This document shows positions 13,511 through 19,827 of a stretch of DNA of 43,438 bases, in pieces. The stretch spans positions 1 to 43,438 of the forward strand of contig DWZQ01000047.1 of NCBI GenBank assembly GCA_019117485.1. Direction: 5' to 3'. The DNA comes from Candidatus Agathobaculum intestinipullorum (lineage in GTDB: Bacteria > Bacillota > Clostridia > Oscillospirales > Butyricicoccaceae). Positions within the stretch are counted from its first letter, which is position 1. Each line of letters opens with the position of its first letter. The notes below the pieces were generated by a model, which saw nothing but the letters and a program-made list of their open reading frames with translations, did not search any database and had not been told where the DNA came from. The translations under genes and the position numbers were made by a program.

Positions 13511-13882
13511 ATGGACAAGATGAAACGGTTACCGGATGCCGAGCTGGAGGTTATGCAGGCGGTCTGGTCGCTTGAGCCGCCCGTAACCGCGGCGGAGGTG
13601 CAGCAAAAAGTGCCGAGCGACTGGAAGGCGACGAGCGTGCTCACCTTCCTCTCGCGCCTGTGCGATAAGGGCTTCCTTTCGTGCGAAAAGGAGGGGCGGC
13701 AGAACCTGTACACGCCGCTCATCACACGCGAGGCCTATTTGCAGCGCGAAAGCCGCAGTTTTGTCGAGCGGCTGTGCGGTGGGTCGGTAAAAAACCTTGT
13801 GGCCAGCCTGTCGGACGCGGGCGCGCTGACCGAAAACGACCTCGACGAACTGCGCGCCTTCCTCGACGCGCAGAGACGGTAA
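13511..13882 (+). CDS. blaI: BlaI/MecI-family transcriptional repressor
   Basis: 123 residues, standard for the family. An N-terminal winged helix (LPDAELEVMQAVWSLEPPVT, then WKATSVLTFLSRLCDKGFLS) is followed by a dimerisation region. The region that BlaR1/MecR1 signalling cleaves in relatives (an Asn-Phe bond) reads SVKNLVASL here, with Leu in place of Phe, so cleavage specificity may differ. AAGGAGG lies 7 bases before the ATG. It is followed 18 bases later by the receptor-protease gene. In most gut Clostridia such pairs are not tied to a beta-lactamase, and none is found here. Confidence 0.93.
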   Translation: MDKMKRLPDAELEVMQAVWSLEPPVTAAEVQQKVPSDWKATSVLTFLSRLCDKGFLSCEKEGRQNLYTPLITREAYLQRESRSFVERLCGGSVKNLVASLSDAGALTENDLDELRAFLDAQRR

Positions 13883-13900
13883 GGACAGGAGGGGTAGGAT

Positions 13901-16900
13901 ATGCTGGACTTTACATGGGGCGATCTGCTCAATAACCTCACGCAGATCGGGTTGACTGTGTCGGCGGTGGCGCTTTTGCTGTTTTTGCTGCGCAAGACGC
14001 TCAAAAAGCGCTATCCCGCGCGCGCGATGTGCCTGGTGTGGGCGGTACTCGCGCTGCGGCTGCTGGTGCCTGTGCAGCTGACGCTGCCCGACCCGCCGGT
14101 GCAGGTCGCGCCGCGCACGACCTATCTGACGCGGACGGACTTCGCGCCCGCGCAGCTCGAACAGGCCGGGTTGCCTGTGCTGGAACTGGACGGTGAGATC
14201 ACCACCGACCGCTGGGTGACGCAGCAGCAGGCGCAGGCGCTTACACCGAATGATATGCCGTCGCTGATCTCGTTCGATTTGGGGCGTTTGCTGGCGATCG
14301 TATGGATTGCCGGTGTGTTGATCTTTGCCAGCTGGCAGTTGTACCACTATCTGACGTTCCACTATGTGCTGAAAAAGAGCAGCCATCCCGCCGAGCGGGA
14401 CATGCTGCTGGCCGTGTTTGCCGGGCAGAAGCAGTCGCTTGGCATCACCCGGGACATCCAGCTGCGGGTCACGCCCACGGCGGATTGTCCGATGCTGGCG
14501 GGCTTCCTGCGTCCCGCACTCTATCTGCCGGACGAAGCGCTGGATGCACAGGACGCGGCGTTCATCTTCCGGCATGAGCTGACGCATTACAAGCGGGGCG
14601 ACCTATGGCTCAAGCTGGCGCTGGTCGCCGCGCGGGCGGTGCATTGGTTCAACCCGCTCGTGCATCTGCTGGCGCGGTTTGCGCAGGAAGACATTGAGCT
14701 GGCCTGCGACGACGCGGTGGTGCGCGGCATGGATGTGGCCGCGCGGCGCGCCTACGGCGAGACGATTTTGCGCTCGGTAGAGGCGCAAGTGAAAAAGCGC
14801 GCGCTGGTATCGTGCTTTACCGGAGATAAGGAGGGGCTTATGCGACGGTTTGAAGGATTGTTTGACAAAAATGTCAAAAAACGCGGCATGGCGCTGGTTG
14901 TGGCGGCAGCGGTGCTGGTTGGCACGCTGGGCTGTGCGTTTTCGGTAGGGGAGAGTAAGGATAAACTGACCGAGGAGACGCGCCGCGCGCTCGCAGATGA
15001 ATGGGCGCAGTCTGCAAATCCCCAATATGGATACACGGTCAAGCTGGATGGGGAAAATACCTATGTGCTGTTCGATCATACCAATACGGTCATGTGGGGG
15101 GAGCAGGTGAGGCAGTCCGTACCCTCACGGAAATGCTGGCAGCTGTTCTTTGAAAACGCGGACGGTGATTGGCGGGTGAGCAATGAGGTACAGATTGCGG
15201 AACATGATGTGACCTCGCTCGATGAATTCCGGCTGCTGTACGAGAACGACCTCGGTTTCCCAGATTTTCTCATGGTGGACTGGACTGACCCGCTGCTGGA
15301 TATCAGCGAACCCGATCAGGCCGCACGGAATTTGCTGCGGCTGAGTGGCAATTCGATGGGCGGCTCGTCCAAAGATATAGCGGGCGACGACATCTGGGAT
15401 GTCACCATTATGTTCCCCGATTACAGCGAGGTGACCATCACGATGGTCAACCAGTTCGACGCGGGCTGGCTGCCGCAGGATTACACCTATGACGGTGGCA
15501 AAAACGCGCGCACCGCCGCTGACCTCGCGGGGCAGTATGCGCGCGGCGTGATGCACAAGAGCGGCCAGTACATCTATCCCATCCTGACCGCGCAGAAGCA
15601 GGAGGAATTTCTCATCGACAGGCCGCTGCCCGACGGTGGCTTTAACTGGAAGTACGGCGGCTCGTCGCCGTCCTACCGGGGTTATACGCTTGTGCCGGTC
15701 GACGATCCGGGCAGCTATCTCGCTGTGTTCCAGATGTATGGCGGCGGTGTGGAGGATATGCGCAGCGCCTTTCTGGTCAGCACGGCGCAGTCTGACGGCC
15801 GCCGGGTGATCGACCGCGTCACCGAGGTAGCAGCAAGCAATTATACAAAGAGTGATCTTTTTAAACTTTATTACGACTCCGGCCTGCCGTGGCCGACCAT
15901 CCCCGAGGGTGCCGAGAACTTCAACGGCGCGTCTCTTGACACGCTGACGCGCGTGCGCGACGCGGTTGAGACTGTTTTCAACTATTTTGGCGAGAACGTC
16001 GAGCATATCGAGGGCAATGTACACCAAATCACGCTCGAAAGCTGGTTTAAGAGCGAAGTCATTTCCGAGGGCGACACGGAGGCCGTCGTGCGGCTGACCT
16101 TTGTCGATAACAGCCCGTCGGTCGATGTGCAAATGCGCAAAACGGACGGCTATTGGCTGCCGGTTGGGCTGGTCACGCAGTTCGACGAGAATTTCCATGC
16201 CTATCAGGTGGAGGGGGATGACCCGACGAGCCAAGGTGCGTTACCTGTTGGCGCGACCATTGCGCAGGCGATCGAGAGCGCAAACGGCGATATCCCGCTG
16301 CTCGAAGCCGGGCAGACCATCAAGCTCGAACCCGTGGACGGCAAACTGTCTGCGTGTGACGCTACGCTGACCGATGCGGTCATCCGCGCGGACGGCACGC
16401 TGCAATACACCGACAGGGAGACGCAGCAGGCAAACATCCGCTTTACCGACGTGTATGGCCGCGGCAGCGCGGTGTACCTGTATCAGGTCGAGCACTTGAC
16501 GGCTGAAGCGCTGTCTTCGACCTATCCGGCGGAAAACTACCGCGGCGTGACGGTTGCCTACACGGCAAACGGCACAGACTATACCGCCGCCTTTGTCTAC
16601 CGGCTGGCAAACGGGGATGCGGCCACCCCAGACTACACCATCACCTCGACCGAATACCACAATGACACTTACGGCTATACCCTGACGCTGCCGGACTGCT
16701 TTGTCGGGCAGGGCTATGTCAAGGAAAATGATGATATGGTCAAATTCGGCCTGCAAAATGCGCTGCCGGGTATTTCGGACGACCCGACGAACGGAGGTGC
16801 GGTGATGTGGCTGGACATACAAGCGACAGCGGTGCTCAAGGCGCAGTTTGGTGAGGACTGGCAGGCGGGTTATCCTGTGCCATGCAAAGAACTCGCCGAG

Positions 16901-18184
16901 CGAGACAGCCTGACCTATTATCTGGCGTTTGCATCTGATGTGCAATATGACCCGTCGGACGAGGAGATCACGGCGGCTTATACCGAAATGAGCGCGGCAG
17001 CGTATGCGATGGGCGCGGACGCGATCTCGTTCGACGGGCAGACGGATGCACAGCGCGATGCCGCGCGCACGCTGCTGCTGCACGATCTGGCGATGCAGTA
17101 TGCCTATACGCTGACGCGCCGCGATGGCTCCACAATTGACACGGTTACAGCCGAGCCGGATTTGACCGACGGCTCGTGCCTGCTGACCGTCCAGTATATA
17201 GATCGCACACACACCCGGTTCTTCACCGTTTCCCAGCAGCTGTGGTACGAGGGGACGGATTCCATCACGCCCATGCGCACGGAAACGCTGGTCGACACTT
17301 CGGACGGCATAGACGCGCGCGCGGACTTCCTGTTGGCCTTCCCGCAGGGGCAGGGTATCCCGGTGATGGATCGCACCGGCATTGACGCCTTGCTTGCCGC
17401 GCCAACCAGCAATCCCGAGCAGGATGCCGAGCGGGTGCTCGGCCTGTCGGGCGGCACGGGGGAGGATTTTGTCCATCATCCCATCAACCAGCGGGTGACG
17501 TTTACCTACCGCTGGCCGGACGGCACGGTGGATTTCACCATGCAGGGGGTCAAGCTGGGCAGTGCAGAGGAACCGGTTTACCTGCCGGTCGGATATAACG
17601 GCTTCGTCTGGGAGGGCGACCCCTATACCTATATGATGTGTGTGGAAAAGAATGATTTCTCCATGTGCTCTGTGCAGGCGCTGGTCGCCTATCTGGCGCA
17701 GAGTGACGGCGCGTATACCGAAAATATCCTGTCCGAGCTGGACGAAGTATGGCAGTTAGGCCTGAATGAAGAAAAAGCAGAGGTGGAAACGGCCATTGCG
17801 GCCAGCAGCGCGGAGGTGCAAAGCCTGTGGGCAAGCCACAAGGCGGCCAATCCGGATATCTTCGGCGCGCGGTTTACGGATGACGAGATCGAAGCGGCTT
17901 ATCAGGCGGTGCGTGAGTATGCGAAGGCAAACGACTTTTCGGTCGAAAACCTGTGGTATGACGCTAACCGCGATATCGGTACTTCACAAGATATTATGCA
18001 GGGAGGCGTTTTGCAGGATAATGTGCAAAACGACGGCCTGACGATCGACAACGTGATTACGGTCATCGGCGATGCGCACTTTGGCGAAACTGCGTGGCGC
18101 GACAAGGCCGAAGGGTACTCGTTTACGCTGTACCGCGGCGCGGACGGCAAATGGGTGCTCGAGGACGGCGCGTACGGCTATTGA
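13901..18184 (+). CDS. BlaR1-like M56 receptor metalloprotease with a very large ectodomain
   Basis: 1427 residues; BlaR1/MecR1 have about 590. The first 350 residues are the usual M56 unit: TM segments at about 10-27, 38-55 and 128-148, the zinc motif HELTH at 225-229 in the loop RHELTHYKRGDLW, the downstream glutamate in EDIELACDDAVV, and a fourth TM at about 328-346. The remaining 1080 or so residues should lie outside the cell. They hold no recognisable penicillin-binding domain but repeat a module (an (A)xxLLxLSG-type helix, beta strands, then WLPxG or YLPVG) near 461, 677 and 1162, plus a YGYTLTLPDCFVG-type domain near 920. By family logic it senses an outside signal and triggers cleavage of BlaI; the ligand is unknown. 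GGAGGGG precedes the ATG. Confidence 0.85.
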   Translation: MLDFTWGDLLNNLTQIGLTVSAVALLLFLLRKTLKKRYPARAMCLVWAVLALRLLVPVQLTLPDPPVQVAPRTTYLTRTDFAPAQLEQAGLPVLELDGEITTDRWVTQQQAQALTPNDMPSLISFDLGRLLAIVWIAGVLIFASWQLYHYLTFHYVLKKSSHPAERDMLLAVFAGQKQSLGITRDIQLRVTPTADCPMLAGFLRPALYLPDEALDAQDAAFIFRHELTHYKRGDLWLKLALVAARAVHWFNPLVHLLARFAQEDIELACDDAVVRGMDVAARRAYGETILRSVEAQVKKRALVSCFTGDKEGLMRRFEGLFDKNVKKRGMALVVAAAVLVGTLGCAFSVGESKDKLTEETRRALADEWAQSANPQYGYTVKLDGENTYVLFDHTNTVMWGEQVRQSVPSRKCWQLFFENADGDWRVSNEVQIAEHDVTSLDEFRLLYENDLGFPDFLMVDWTDPLLDISEPDQAARNLLRLSGNSMGGSSKDIAGDDIWDVTIMFPDYSEVTITMVNQFDAGWLPQDYTYDGGKNARTAADLAGQYARGVMHKSGQYIYPILTAQKQEEFLIDRPLPDGGFNWKYGGSSPSYRGYTLVPVDDPGSYLAVFQMYGGGVEDMRSAFLVSTAQSDGRRVIDRVTEVAASNYTKSDLFKLYYDSGLPWPTIPEGAENFNGASLDTLTRVRDAVETVFNYFGENVEHIEGNVHQITLESWFKSEVISEGDTEAVVRLTFVDNSPSVDVQMRKTDGYWLPVGLVTQFDENFHAYQVEGDDPTSQGALPVGATIAQAIESANGDIPLLEAGQTIKLEPVDGKLSACDATLTDAVIRADGTLQYTDRETQQANIRFTDVYGRGSAVYLYQVEHLTAEALSSTYPAENYRGVTVAYTANGTDYTAAFVYRLANGDAATPDYTITSTEYHNDTYGYTLTLPDCFVGQGYVKENDDMVKFGLQNALPGISDDPTNGGAVMWLDIQATAVLKAQFGEDWQAGYPVPCKELAERDSLTYYLAFASDVQYDPSDEEITAAYTEMSAAAYAMGADAISFDGQTDAQRDAARTLLLHDLAMQYAYTLTRRDGSTIDTVTAEPDLTDGSCLLTVQYIDRTHTRFFTVSQQLWYEGTDSITPMRTETLVDTSDGIDARADFLLAFPQGQGIPVMDRTGIDALLAAPTSNPEQDAERVLGLSGGTGEDFVHHPINQRVTFTYRWPDGTVDFTMQGVKLGSAEEPVYLPVGYNGFVWEGDPYTYMMCVEKNDFSMCSVQALVAYLAQSDGAYTENILSELDEVWQLGLNEEKAEVETAIAASSAEVQSLWASHKAANPDIFGARFTDDEIEAAYQAVREYAKANDFSVENLWYDANRDIGTSQDIMQGGVLQDNVQNDGLTIDNVITVIGDAHFGETAWRDKAEGYSFTLYRGADGKWVLEDGAYGY

Positions 18185-18223: not shown

Positions 18224-18252
18224 TTGACACCGCCCCCTCCCCGTGATAAGAT
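18224..18252 (+). promoter_or_regulatory. Promoter of the riboswitch-oadB transcript
   Basis: Perfect TTGACA (18224-18229), 17-base spacer, TAAGAT (18247-18252). Transcription would start near 18259, exactly at the 5' strand of the riboswitch P1 helix, leaving a leader of about 155 bases before oadB. Confidence 0.85.
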
Positions 18253-18258
18253 GATGCC

Positions 18259-18396
18259 AAACAAAGGGGAGTAGTCGGCGCGGCCTGTCCGCGCGGCATC
18301 GCCAACAAGCATGACGGGGCGCGTGATCCCGTTCTGGCTGTTGCCTGAAATGACCAGACCTGCGTTTTCCTTTCGGGAAACGCAGGTCATTTTTTA
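18259..18396 (+). promoter_or_regulatory. yybP-ykoY-type (Mn2+) riboswitch with terminator expression platform
   Basis: The leader contains the family hallmark GGGGAGTAG (18266-18274), a perfect GCGCGG/CCGCGC hairpin, a second arm GCCAACAAGCATGACGGG with a CCCGTTCTGGC return strand, and the closing CAGACC. The P1 helix pairs AAAC..AGG (18259-18267) with CCT..GTTT (18359-18367). That 3' strand is also the 5' arm of a strong terminator (stem 18357-18370 with 18375-18388, then T6). Ligand-stabilised P1 would prevent the terminator and switch the gene on, as known for Mn2+ members of this family. The match was made by eye to recalled members, not with a covariance model. The riboswitch lies upstream of an OadB-like gene. 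Confidence 0.72.
18357..18396 (+). terminator. Riboswitch-controlled intrinsic terminator
   Basis: Stem GACCTGCGTTTTCC/GGGAAACGCAGGTC (one G-T pair) with a TTTC loop, followed by ATTTTTT, ending 18 bases before the oadB start. Its 5' arm overlaps the 3' strand of the aptamer P1 helix. Confidence 0.88.
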
Positions 18397-18413
18397 TTCA
18401 AGGGGGCGGTATC

Positions 18414-19541
18414 ATGGAATTCTTATATGAAGGTTTGCTGTCGGTGACATGGCAGCAGGTAGTGATGTATCTGGTCGGCGGGCTGCTGATCTGGCTTGCG
18501 ATACAGAAGCAGTACGAACCTGCGCTGTTGCTGCCGATGGGCTTCGGCGCAATTCTGGTCAACTTGCCGATGTCGGGCGTGGTCGACCAAATCACGCAGG
18601 GCGCAGGCACGACGCATGGCATCATCCAATGGCTGTTTGAAACCGGCATCGAAGCGTCCGAGGCGTTGCCGCTTTTGCTGTTTATCGGCATCGGCGCGAT
18701 GATTGACTTCGGCCCGCTGCTGGCCAGCCCCAAGCTGTTTTTGTTCGGTGCGGCGGCGCAGGTCGGCATCTTCCTGACGATCATCGCGGCGGCAGCGTTC
18801 GGGTTTGACATCGTGGACGCGGCGGCTATCGGCATCATCGGCGCAGCGGACGGCCCGACCTCGCTGCTTGTCTCGCAGGTGCTCGGCTCGAAATATGTCG
18901 GCGCGATCGCAGTTGCCGCGTACAGCTACATGGCGCTCGTGCCGATCATCCAGCCGTTTGCCATCAAGCTGGTGACGACGAAAAAAGAACGCGCGATGAA
19001 GATGCCGTATGCCGCCGGACAGGTCAGCCGCCGCACGCGCATCCTGTTCCCGATCGTCGTGTCGATCGTGGCTGGACTGGTCGCGCCTGCGTCGGTGTCG
19101 CTCGTGGGCTTTTTGATGTTCGGCAACCTCATCCGCGAGTGCGGTGTGCTCGACAGCCTGTCAAAAACCGCGCAGCATGAGCTGGCAAACCTTGTCACCC
19201 TGCTGCTCGGCATCACGATTTCGTTCTCGATGCGCGCCGAGCAGTTCGTCACCCCGGACACCCTGCTGATCCTGTGCCTCGGTCTGGTGGCGTTCACGCT
19301 GGACACGGTGGGCGGCGTACTGTTTGCCAAAATCCTTAACCTGTTCTGCAAAAATAAGGTCAATCCGATGGTCGGCGCGGCGGGCATTTCGGCCTTCCCG
19401 ATGAGCGCGCGCGTGGTCGAAAAGCTGGGCGTCGAGGCGGATAAGACCAACCACCTGCTGATGCACGCGGCGGGTGCGAATGTCGCCGGGCAGATCGCGT
19501 CGGTCGTCGCGGGCGGCGTGATCTTGGGGTTCTTCCTGTAA
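18414..19541 (+). CDS. oadB: OadB/GcdB-like membrane protein (Na+-translocating decarboxylase beta-subunit family)
   Basis: 375 residues with about ten hydrophobic segments and the family signature GIIGAADGPTSLLVSQ near residue 142, plus GAAGISAFPMSARVV near 322; these glycine-rich loops with Asp and Ser/Asn form the Na+ path in oxaloacetate or glutaconyl-CoA decarboxylases. It sits in the cytoplasmic membrane. The alpha (carboxyltransferase) and biotin-carrier subunits are absent here, and only a tiny gamma-like peptide follows. It is controlled by the leader riboswitch. It may serve a decarboxylase encoded elsewhere, or act alone as an ion transporter. GGGGG lies 8 bases before the ATG. Confidence 0.88.
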   Translation: MEFLYEGLLSVTWQQVVMYLVGGLLIWLAIQKQYEPALLLPMGFGAILVNLPMSGVVDQITQGAGTTHGIIQWLFETGIEASEALPLLLFIGIGAMIDFGPLLASPKLFLFGAAAQVGIFLTIIAAAAFGFDIVDAAAIGIIGAADGPTSLLVSQVLGSKYVGAIAVAAYSYMALVPIIQPFAIKLVTTKKERAMKMPYAAGQVSRRTRILFPIVVSIVAGLVAPASVSLVGFLMFGNLIRECGVLDSLSKTAQHELANLVTLLLGITISFSMRAEQFVTPDTLLILCLGLVAFTLDTVGGVLFAKILNLFCKNKVNPMVGAAGISAFPMSARVVEKLGVEADKTNHLLMHAAGANVAGQIASVVAGGVILGFFL

Positions 19542-19559: not shown

Positions 19560-19688
19560 ATGCATGAAGCGGTAAACACGGCGATTGTCCTGTTTGGACA
19601 GGGCATGGCGGGCATTTTCACCGTGCTTGCGGTGATCGCGCTGATCGTCGCGCTGCTGGGCAGTTTGGACAAAAAACCGCCGCAGTAG
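19560..19688 (+). CDS. 42-residue OadG-like (decarboxylase gamma) membrane peptide
   Basis: The peptide starts MHEAVNTAIVLFGQGM and continues AGIFTVLAVIALIVALLG, one membrane span, then SLDKKPPQ. The N-terminal helix preceded by a short polar leader is how OadG-type gamma subunits begin, but those usually run to 80-120 residues with a cytoplasmic tail; this one stops right after the span. AAGGGG lies 9 bases before the ATG and the gene is 18 bases after oadB, so the two are co-transcribed. It probably stabilises the OadB-like protein. It is easily missed by gene callers because of its size. Confidence 0.75.
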   Translation: MHEAVNTAIVLFGQGMAGIFTVLAVIALIVALLGSLDKKPPQ

Positions 19689-19750: not shown

Positions 19751-19827
19751 GGGGTTGTAGCTCAGCTGGTCAGAGCGTTCGCCTCACACGCGAGAGGTCG
19801 TGGGTTCGAGCCCCGCCAACCCCACCA
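19751..19827 (+). tRNA. tRNA-Val (anticodon CAC)
   Basis: 77 bases with encoded CCA. The acceptor stem GGGGTTG/CAACCCC is perfect; the D arm is GCTCAGCTGGTCAGAGC; the anticodon stem TTCGC/GCGAG encloses the loop CTCACAC, giving CAC; the T arm GTGGGTTCGAGCCCCGC pairs with one G-T. Confidence 0.96.

Follow-up and report, generated by a model that had tools for sequence, protein, structure and literature searches.

The closest described system to the leader analyzed here is the yybP-ykoY riboswitch class. In the portion of a structural study that was available (PMC6754395), Mn2+ stabilizes helix P1.1 of class members against strand invasion by a terminator, an invariable adenosine contacts the ion, and the L3 residues following this adenosine vary among the solved members with the metal contacts unchanged. 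The accessible text of PMC9190785 calls an L. lactis member an ON-switch, and a review, in the part consulted, names the class OFF switches (PMC11477304), at odds both with PMC9190785 and with the ON reading adopted below.

The window, that is, the whole stretch of 43,438 nucleotides under analysis, holds the parts described in PMC6754395 in the same order, directly before an oadB-like gene, and an ON switch acting by antitermination is therefore the natural reading. The features are as follows.

18224-18252, + strand: sigma-70-type promoter, TTGACA-17-TAAGAT with TG ahead of the -10 element (motif scan against shuffles)
18259-18267, + strand: 5' strand of P1.1, the switch helix, pairing with 18359-18367 at 7 of 9 positions
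18266-18274, + strand: L1 core GGGGAGTAG, whose GGGAGT is invariant across all 96 aligned leaders
18274-18277, + strand: 5' strand of P1.2, partner 18351-18354
18278-18294, + strand: P2 hairpin, 6 pairs
18296-18344, + strand: P3 arm, in which 18296-18302 pairs with 18337-18344 apart from a U-U mismatch and a bulged U
18303-18313, + strand: L3 core CAACAAGCATG; in the alignment its A18307 falls on the invariable adenosine through which the class contacts Mn2+, and a one-to-one equivalence of the two is predicted from this
18314-18319 with 18327-18332, + strand: upper stem of P3
18351-18360, + strand: 3' strand of P1.2 and closing CAGACC (18355-18360), whose AGAC is likewise invariant across the 96
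18357-18397, + strand: intrinsic terminator, 18357-18370 with 18375-18388 in 14 pairs, then the T-rich tract ATTTTTTATT
18359-18367, + strand: 3' strand of P1.1, common to the terminator
18414-19541, + strand: oadB-like gene, 375 aa, OAD_beta, orphan subfamily (PF03977 E 4e-149; TIGR01109 418.7 bits)
19560-19688, + strand: small ORF of 42 aa, a weak match to the OadG-related small subunit model NF040909 (20.7 bits, below the cut-off of 25)

A reading made earlier from the letters of this DNA (hereafter, the sequence-only reading) had placed the start of the leader at a consensus promoter. This was borne out: the promoter matches the consensus at 10 of 12 positions, and one such element was found against a shuffle mean of 0.1. 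From the promoter spacing, the RNA is expected to start near 18258-18260, so that the 5' strand of P1 would form the 5' end of the RNA. The L1 core, the two-arm fold and the closing CAGACC of that reading are likewise all present. Its proposed competition between P1 and the terminator (stem and ATTTTTTATT found once against a shuffle mean of 0.5) holds as far as the overlap goes, which is complete, as no base of the nine-base P1 3' strand falls outside the terminator 5' arm; P1 itself is weaker than implied, because two of its nine positions are unpaired (A18263/C18363 and A18264/G18362, leaving 7 pairs). Just upstream of the leader (13511-18184) are genes for a BlaI-like repressor and then an M56/BlaR1-type protein of unusual length (1427 aa), and directly 3' of the operon is a tRNA gene (19751-19824, 68.4 bits); tRNAs were also seen near oadB in several relatives.

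The check proposed in the sequence-only reading, a search with the Rfam RF00080 covariance model, came out negative: the leader had no match at the gathering score nor at any E value up to 5. A scan with the family library gave four matches to the leader up to E 5, none of them a riboswitch family; the Na+-I model, which presumably formed part of that library, was not among the four. RF00080 scored above its cut-off in none of the oadB leaders tested. Up to E 5 it also missed the host's own clear mntP leader (L060), two further mntP leaders (L042, L065) and another oadB leader (L028), and its score for the E. coli mntP leader, a Mn riboswitch according to the accessible part of PMC9603457, was 41.6 bits, short of the cut-off of 45. 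Over 60 relatives there were six matches at E ≤ 0.001, none above the cut-off, comprising two orthologous oadB leaders, three of mntP and one of a P-type ATPase. Sub-cut-off scores on orthologous oadB leaders were 24.9 and 21.3 bits (L034 and L037) and, for five of nine in a further set, of similar size (29-34 bits, E 1.4e-5 to 3.9e-4), and one scan matched a single leader (L023) among eight leader-bearing oadB loci. Since the model misses the host mntP leader and leaves E. coli mntP below the cut-off, its failure on our leader is not decisive, and RF00080 was dropped as a decisive test. The cut-off is a detection threshold, not a structural definition; the leader falls below it, so we claim yybP-ykoY membership by homology and not by Rfam's rule.

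The same behavior was seen among the mntP leaders of the host genus and family (L060, L042, L065 and relatives), for which an RF00080 match is absent or below the cut-off, and annotation by the Rfam cut-off would therefore miss them. This indicates that the cut-off skips Mn2+-type leaders in this order, mntP ones included, and the annotated manganese regulons of these gut bacteria are probably incomplete. Separately, another Rfam family, RF02617 SSRC10 ('Streptococcus sRNA 10'), gave sub-cut-off scores of 26-39 bits on seven leaders, L060 and L028 among them. Its consensus carries GGGAGuag, CGUCaa and GaGaCcuG plus a terminator hairpin, and from this consensus it looks like a yybP-ykoY riboswitch and terminator classed as an sRNA.

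Because of the insensitivity of RF00080, we derived a model of our own, R1, independently of it, using 23 leaders of the order, 22 of mntP and one of a P-type ATPase, with no oadB leader among them. The motif was present at 21 of 30 mntP loci, of which 19 were kept (two near-copies omitted) and supplemented with four further leaders (L032, L033, L035, L036). R1 matched the window at 18255-18371 with 56.1 bits (E 2e-13) and had no second match in the 43-kb window up to E 10. In the host genome, where 150 of 831 first-look candidates were scored, R1 found only the mntP leader (118.4 bits) and that of the oadB-like gene. In E. coli the model also recovered the leader of mntP (21.5 bits, E 3e-4), but that of alx was matched neither by R1 (up to E 10) nor by RF00080 (up to E 0.05). 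Wherever the gene behind another R1 or RF00080 match could be named, it was mntP or a P-type ATPase. The assignment of the leader to the yybP-ykoY class is thus supported by a model that had seen mntP and P-type ATPase leaders only, together with strong covariation, and the suggestion of a new regulon member in the sequence-only reading is strengthened, the same RNA preceding mntP in the host genome.

For covariation we aligned 96 oadB leaders to R1 (alignment A5), all of them known R1 matches, with same-genome duplicates removed and six weak matches omitted. In total, 94.5% of cells were paired, and both-sided changes occurred in 25 of the 26 pairs. They amounted to 579 cells against a shuffled mean of 164, a count that leans towards structure because the rows were preselected as R1 matches and fitted to R1. 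With slid partners, pairing fell to 29-42%. Beyond the invariant GGGAGT and AGAC, the L3 adenosine was kept in 92 of the 93 leaders with a letter at that position (three were gapped). The residues after it are AGCAUG in the window and UACUGG in the host mntP leader, and two oadB leaders (L016 and L018) carry a near-canonical ACAUAC in L3. Loss of the L1 motif and of the overlap between P1 and terminator in orthologous leaders had been named in the sequence-only reading as evidence that would go against it. We found GGGGAGTRG kept in 22 of 22 loci at or above about 82% identity, the window included and a partial copy at a contig end left out; a T-tailed hairpin overlapping the 3' strand of P1.1 was detected by a simple rule in 72 of the 96 leaders, and the other 24 had no such hairpin under this rule. 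Six loci, from some of the Agathobaculum genomes, have an insert of roughly 150-240 bases between the terminator and oadB; the inserts are rich in hairpins, share sequence and are possibly small mobile elements.

Single-sequence folding was uninformative or mildly contrary, and was set aside as evidence. For 18258-18368, the minimum-energy fold reached -36.9 kcal/mol against -24.2 kcal/mol for the canonical aptamer fold, with nearest-neighbor energies that leave out tertiary docking and metal. The stretch 18252-18375 was no more stable than shuffles (z +0.93), and a longer stretch including the whole terminator was (z -3.91). Thermodynamics alone give the aptamer fold no support; as judged from the sequences, the support beyond chance is comparative, comprising the R1 matches, the orthologue surveys and the covariation. 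An alternative hairpin at about 18333-18358, present in the minimum-energy fold and in the consensus of alignment A2, may be a ligand-free fold.

To the question of whether related OadB-like genes carry the same leader, raised in the sequence-only reading, the surveys answered that it recurs. R1 leaders were found at 23 of 30 oadB-like loci of relatives. Among 100 additional orthologues from the order the count was 30 at E ≤ 0.01 and 33 at E up to 5, and among 80 named loci it was 62 (E ≤ 0.01), in the last set always upstream and on the strand of the gene. The 100 orthologues were drawn from the matches listed, with ten rows omitted and three genomes without a locus left out, and the 80 named loci, the top-scoring ones out of 197, partly coincide with the other genomes surveyed. 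Leader-bearing named records include Agathobaculum (the nearest to the window locus), Butyricicoccus, Intestinibacillus, Acutalibacter, Neglectibacter, Oscillibacter and Marasmitruncus, and the leader-bearing loci of the 30- and 100-locus sets fall under eleven family codes. At 20 leaderless loci, a search for other RNA families at gathering level returned two tRNAs and nothing else.

The other OadB clade served as a control. R1 gave no matches up to E 5 on its 42 sources (41 distinct loci, 44-51% identity); 27 of the 40 fetched loci had about 5 kb of upstream sequence and four had fewer than 400 bases. Within 3 kb upstream of these controls, a biotin-carrier motif was present in 35 of 40 and an OadA-type motif in 20 of 40, with neither in five. 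In a tree inferred with FastTree only, from 194 subfamily proteins (leader detected for 99, not detected for 95) and 40 proteins of the other clade, the latter formed one side of a branch with support of 100. The leader label requires 27 changes on this tree, where shuffled labels require 75 on average, and branches with good support force at least 10 of the 27, so the leader link was gained or lost repeatedly. It is clustered but not obligatory, as 95 of the 194 distinct subfamily proteins are at loci without a detected leader, some of which have short upstream sequence.

The regulated OadB-like protein looks like an orphan. No OadA or biotin-carrier neighbor was found at its locus, and the host genome, whose completeness is 94.95%, yielded a single PYC_OADA domain, located on another contig (C18), where it adjoins a second OadB, an OadG-like ORF and a biotin carrier; it is because the one OadA domain of the genome adjoins another OadB that the window protein looks orphaned. 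Near the named loci, the OadA-type motif occurred in 0 of 80 and the biotin-carrier motif [AVS]MKM in 17 of 80; among seven of these 17 that were inspected, four were the AMKM of OadB itself and three lay elsewhere. By rule, 115 of the 130 subfamily loci have a small OadG-like ORF after oadB; in the remaining 15, inspection by eye showed it clearly in eight and partly in four. In the alignment with Salmonella OadB (6iva), D146, Y172, N317, G321, S326 and R333 face D203, Y229, N373, G377, S382 and R389, six positions that we take to be functional, Na+-site residues of OadB and that are conserved in the subfamily. Among the residues specific to the subfamily, the NPxxGxAGxSAxPM motif contains M319, I325 and F328, and the NVAG motif contains Q360. 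OadB as a replacement for MntP was ruled out, with MntP present in 53 of 60 relatives, the host included. A motif scan also showed a membrane pyrophosphatase signature near a leaderless oadB-like gene in three of 210 loci (L112, L116 and L269), directly upstream in L112 and L116.

In the mechanism that we propose, at low Mn2+ the nascent RNA would form the terminator (18357-18388) and transcription would end before the oadB-like gene. At high Mn2+, the ion would be held between L1 (18266-18274) and L3 (A18307) and the two arms would dock; P1.1 would be stabilized and would withhold 18359-18367 from the terminator, and the operon would be transcribed. The carrier would then work in manganese homeostasis alongside MntP, in the simplest form as a Na+-coupled Mn2+ exporter. 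Taking class, ligand and direction jointly, we consider it likely that a transcriptional yybP-ykoY Mn2+ ON riboswitch controls the oadB-like operon. Homology and the leader held in common with mntP point to Mn2+ as the ligand, and the ON direction is the one we infer. The computed support covers the RNA homology, the covariation, the terminator overlap, the leader shared with mntP and the orphan status. Counting against the switch are the RF00080 miss, a canonical fold that is not the minimum-energy one, the L3 divergence, the non-obligatory link, the quarter of the aligned leaders (24 of 96) without the hairpin and the missed alx leader.

The pairing with the riboswitch recurs in many gut Clostridia, and the oadB-like gene is therefore likely a new player in manganese balance. 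For the export step, the Na+-coupled Mn2+ exporter is the simplest reading because the Na+ site is kept, the enzyme is absent alongside and the Mn2+-type switch is common to MntP; we put it forward tentatively, at a little below an even chance. With the same reserve, the riboswitch-linked orphan OadB clade and its tiny OadG-like partner could make up an unrecognized exporter family, widespread among gut Clostridia, that couples Mn2+ efflux to Na+; the proposal falls slightly short of being evenly balanced and, if true, would mean that a subunit of a decarboxylase-driven sodium pump became a metal carrier. The kept Na+-site residues also fit an ordinary Na+ role. The main alternative, which disputes the export step only, accepts the Mn2+ switch but denies Mn2+ transport by the OadB-like protein, which would instead restore Na+/proton gradients or serve another pump under manganese stress. 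Conservation of the six functional positions fits such a role, as does the pyrophosphatase signature near three of the 210 loci, whereas the restriction of the other nameable targets to mntP and P-type ATPase genes, the subfamily-specific residues within conserved C-terminal motifs and the missing decarboxylase partner next to the OadB-like gene argue against it, and we regard it as a real possibility that we nevertheless lean against.

Two further explanations concern the RNA itself. The aptamer could have an altered specificity and sense another ion, for example Na+ or another transition metal, which would suit an L3 that differs from the host mntP leader after the key adenosine and, in the accessible part of PMC9337991, the occurrence of Na+-I riboswitches near some oxaloacetate decarboxylase genes. 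This is improbable, given the conservation of the L1 core and the L3 adenosine in nearly all aligned leaders, the near-canonical ACAUAC of L016 and L018, the unchanged metal contacts of solved members that vary past the adenosine (PMC6754395, in the portion noted above) and the lack of any riboswitch family match to the leader up to E 5. That there is no riboswitch at all, and that a terminator resembles one by chance or the leader has a different function, would agree with the absent Rfam match and the unremarkable fold of the aptamer stretch; set against the independent R1 match and the strong covariation, it is very hard to credit.

What is new here is the target gene; the RNA itself is ordinary for its class. 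The literature search found no paper on OadB with the yybP-ykoY class or with manganese efflux; the founding papers (Dambach 2015 and Price 2015) lay outside the search, and an earlier mention there is possible. A metal riboswitch that recurs upstream of one OadB clade and went undetected in the other yields a specific, testable hypothesis for a whole protein subfamily and bears on why genomes keep a stand-alone OadB.

Compared with known systems, the RNA is, by homology and core features and not by the Rfam cut-off, an ordinary yybP-ykoY member. It shares with the class the L1 core GGGGAGUAG, the ACA of L3 and AGACC, as well as P1.1, P1.2, P2 and P3 in class order with covariation and P1.1 overlapping the terminator, and it has a paralogous leader before mntP in the host genome; it differs in its score below the Rfam cut-off, in L3 after the key adenosine and in its target, an OadB-type protein. 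The Na+-I (DUF1646) riboswitch, as described in the available part of PMC9337991, is likewise an ion-sensing RNA before a gene of the same protein superfamily, whereas the core in the window is that of the Mn2+ class. The protein belongs to the same family as Salmonella OadB (6iva, 6iww; 6iva E 3.1e-98, PF03977 as listed above). It differs from the other OadB clade, which represents the second OadB type of the host, at G43, M319, I325, F328, Q360 and G367, invariant in 194 of 194 subfamily proteins, where the other clade has A, L, V, V, V and A in 40 of 40. Like the OadABG complex, the locus has an OadB family sequence with the Na+-site residues; unlike it, this is an orphan OadB clade without an OadA partner and with a tiny OadG-like one.
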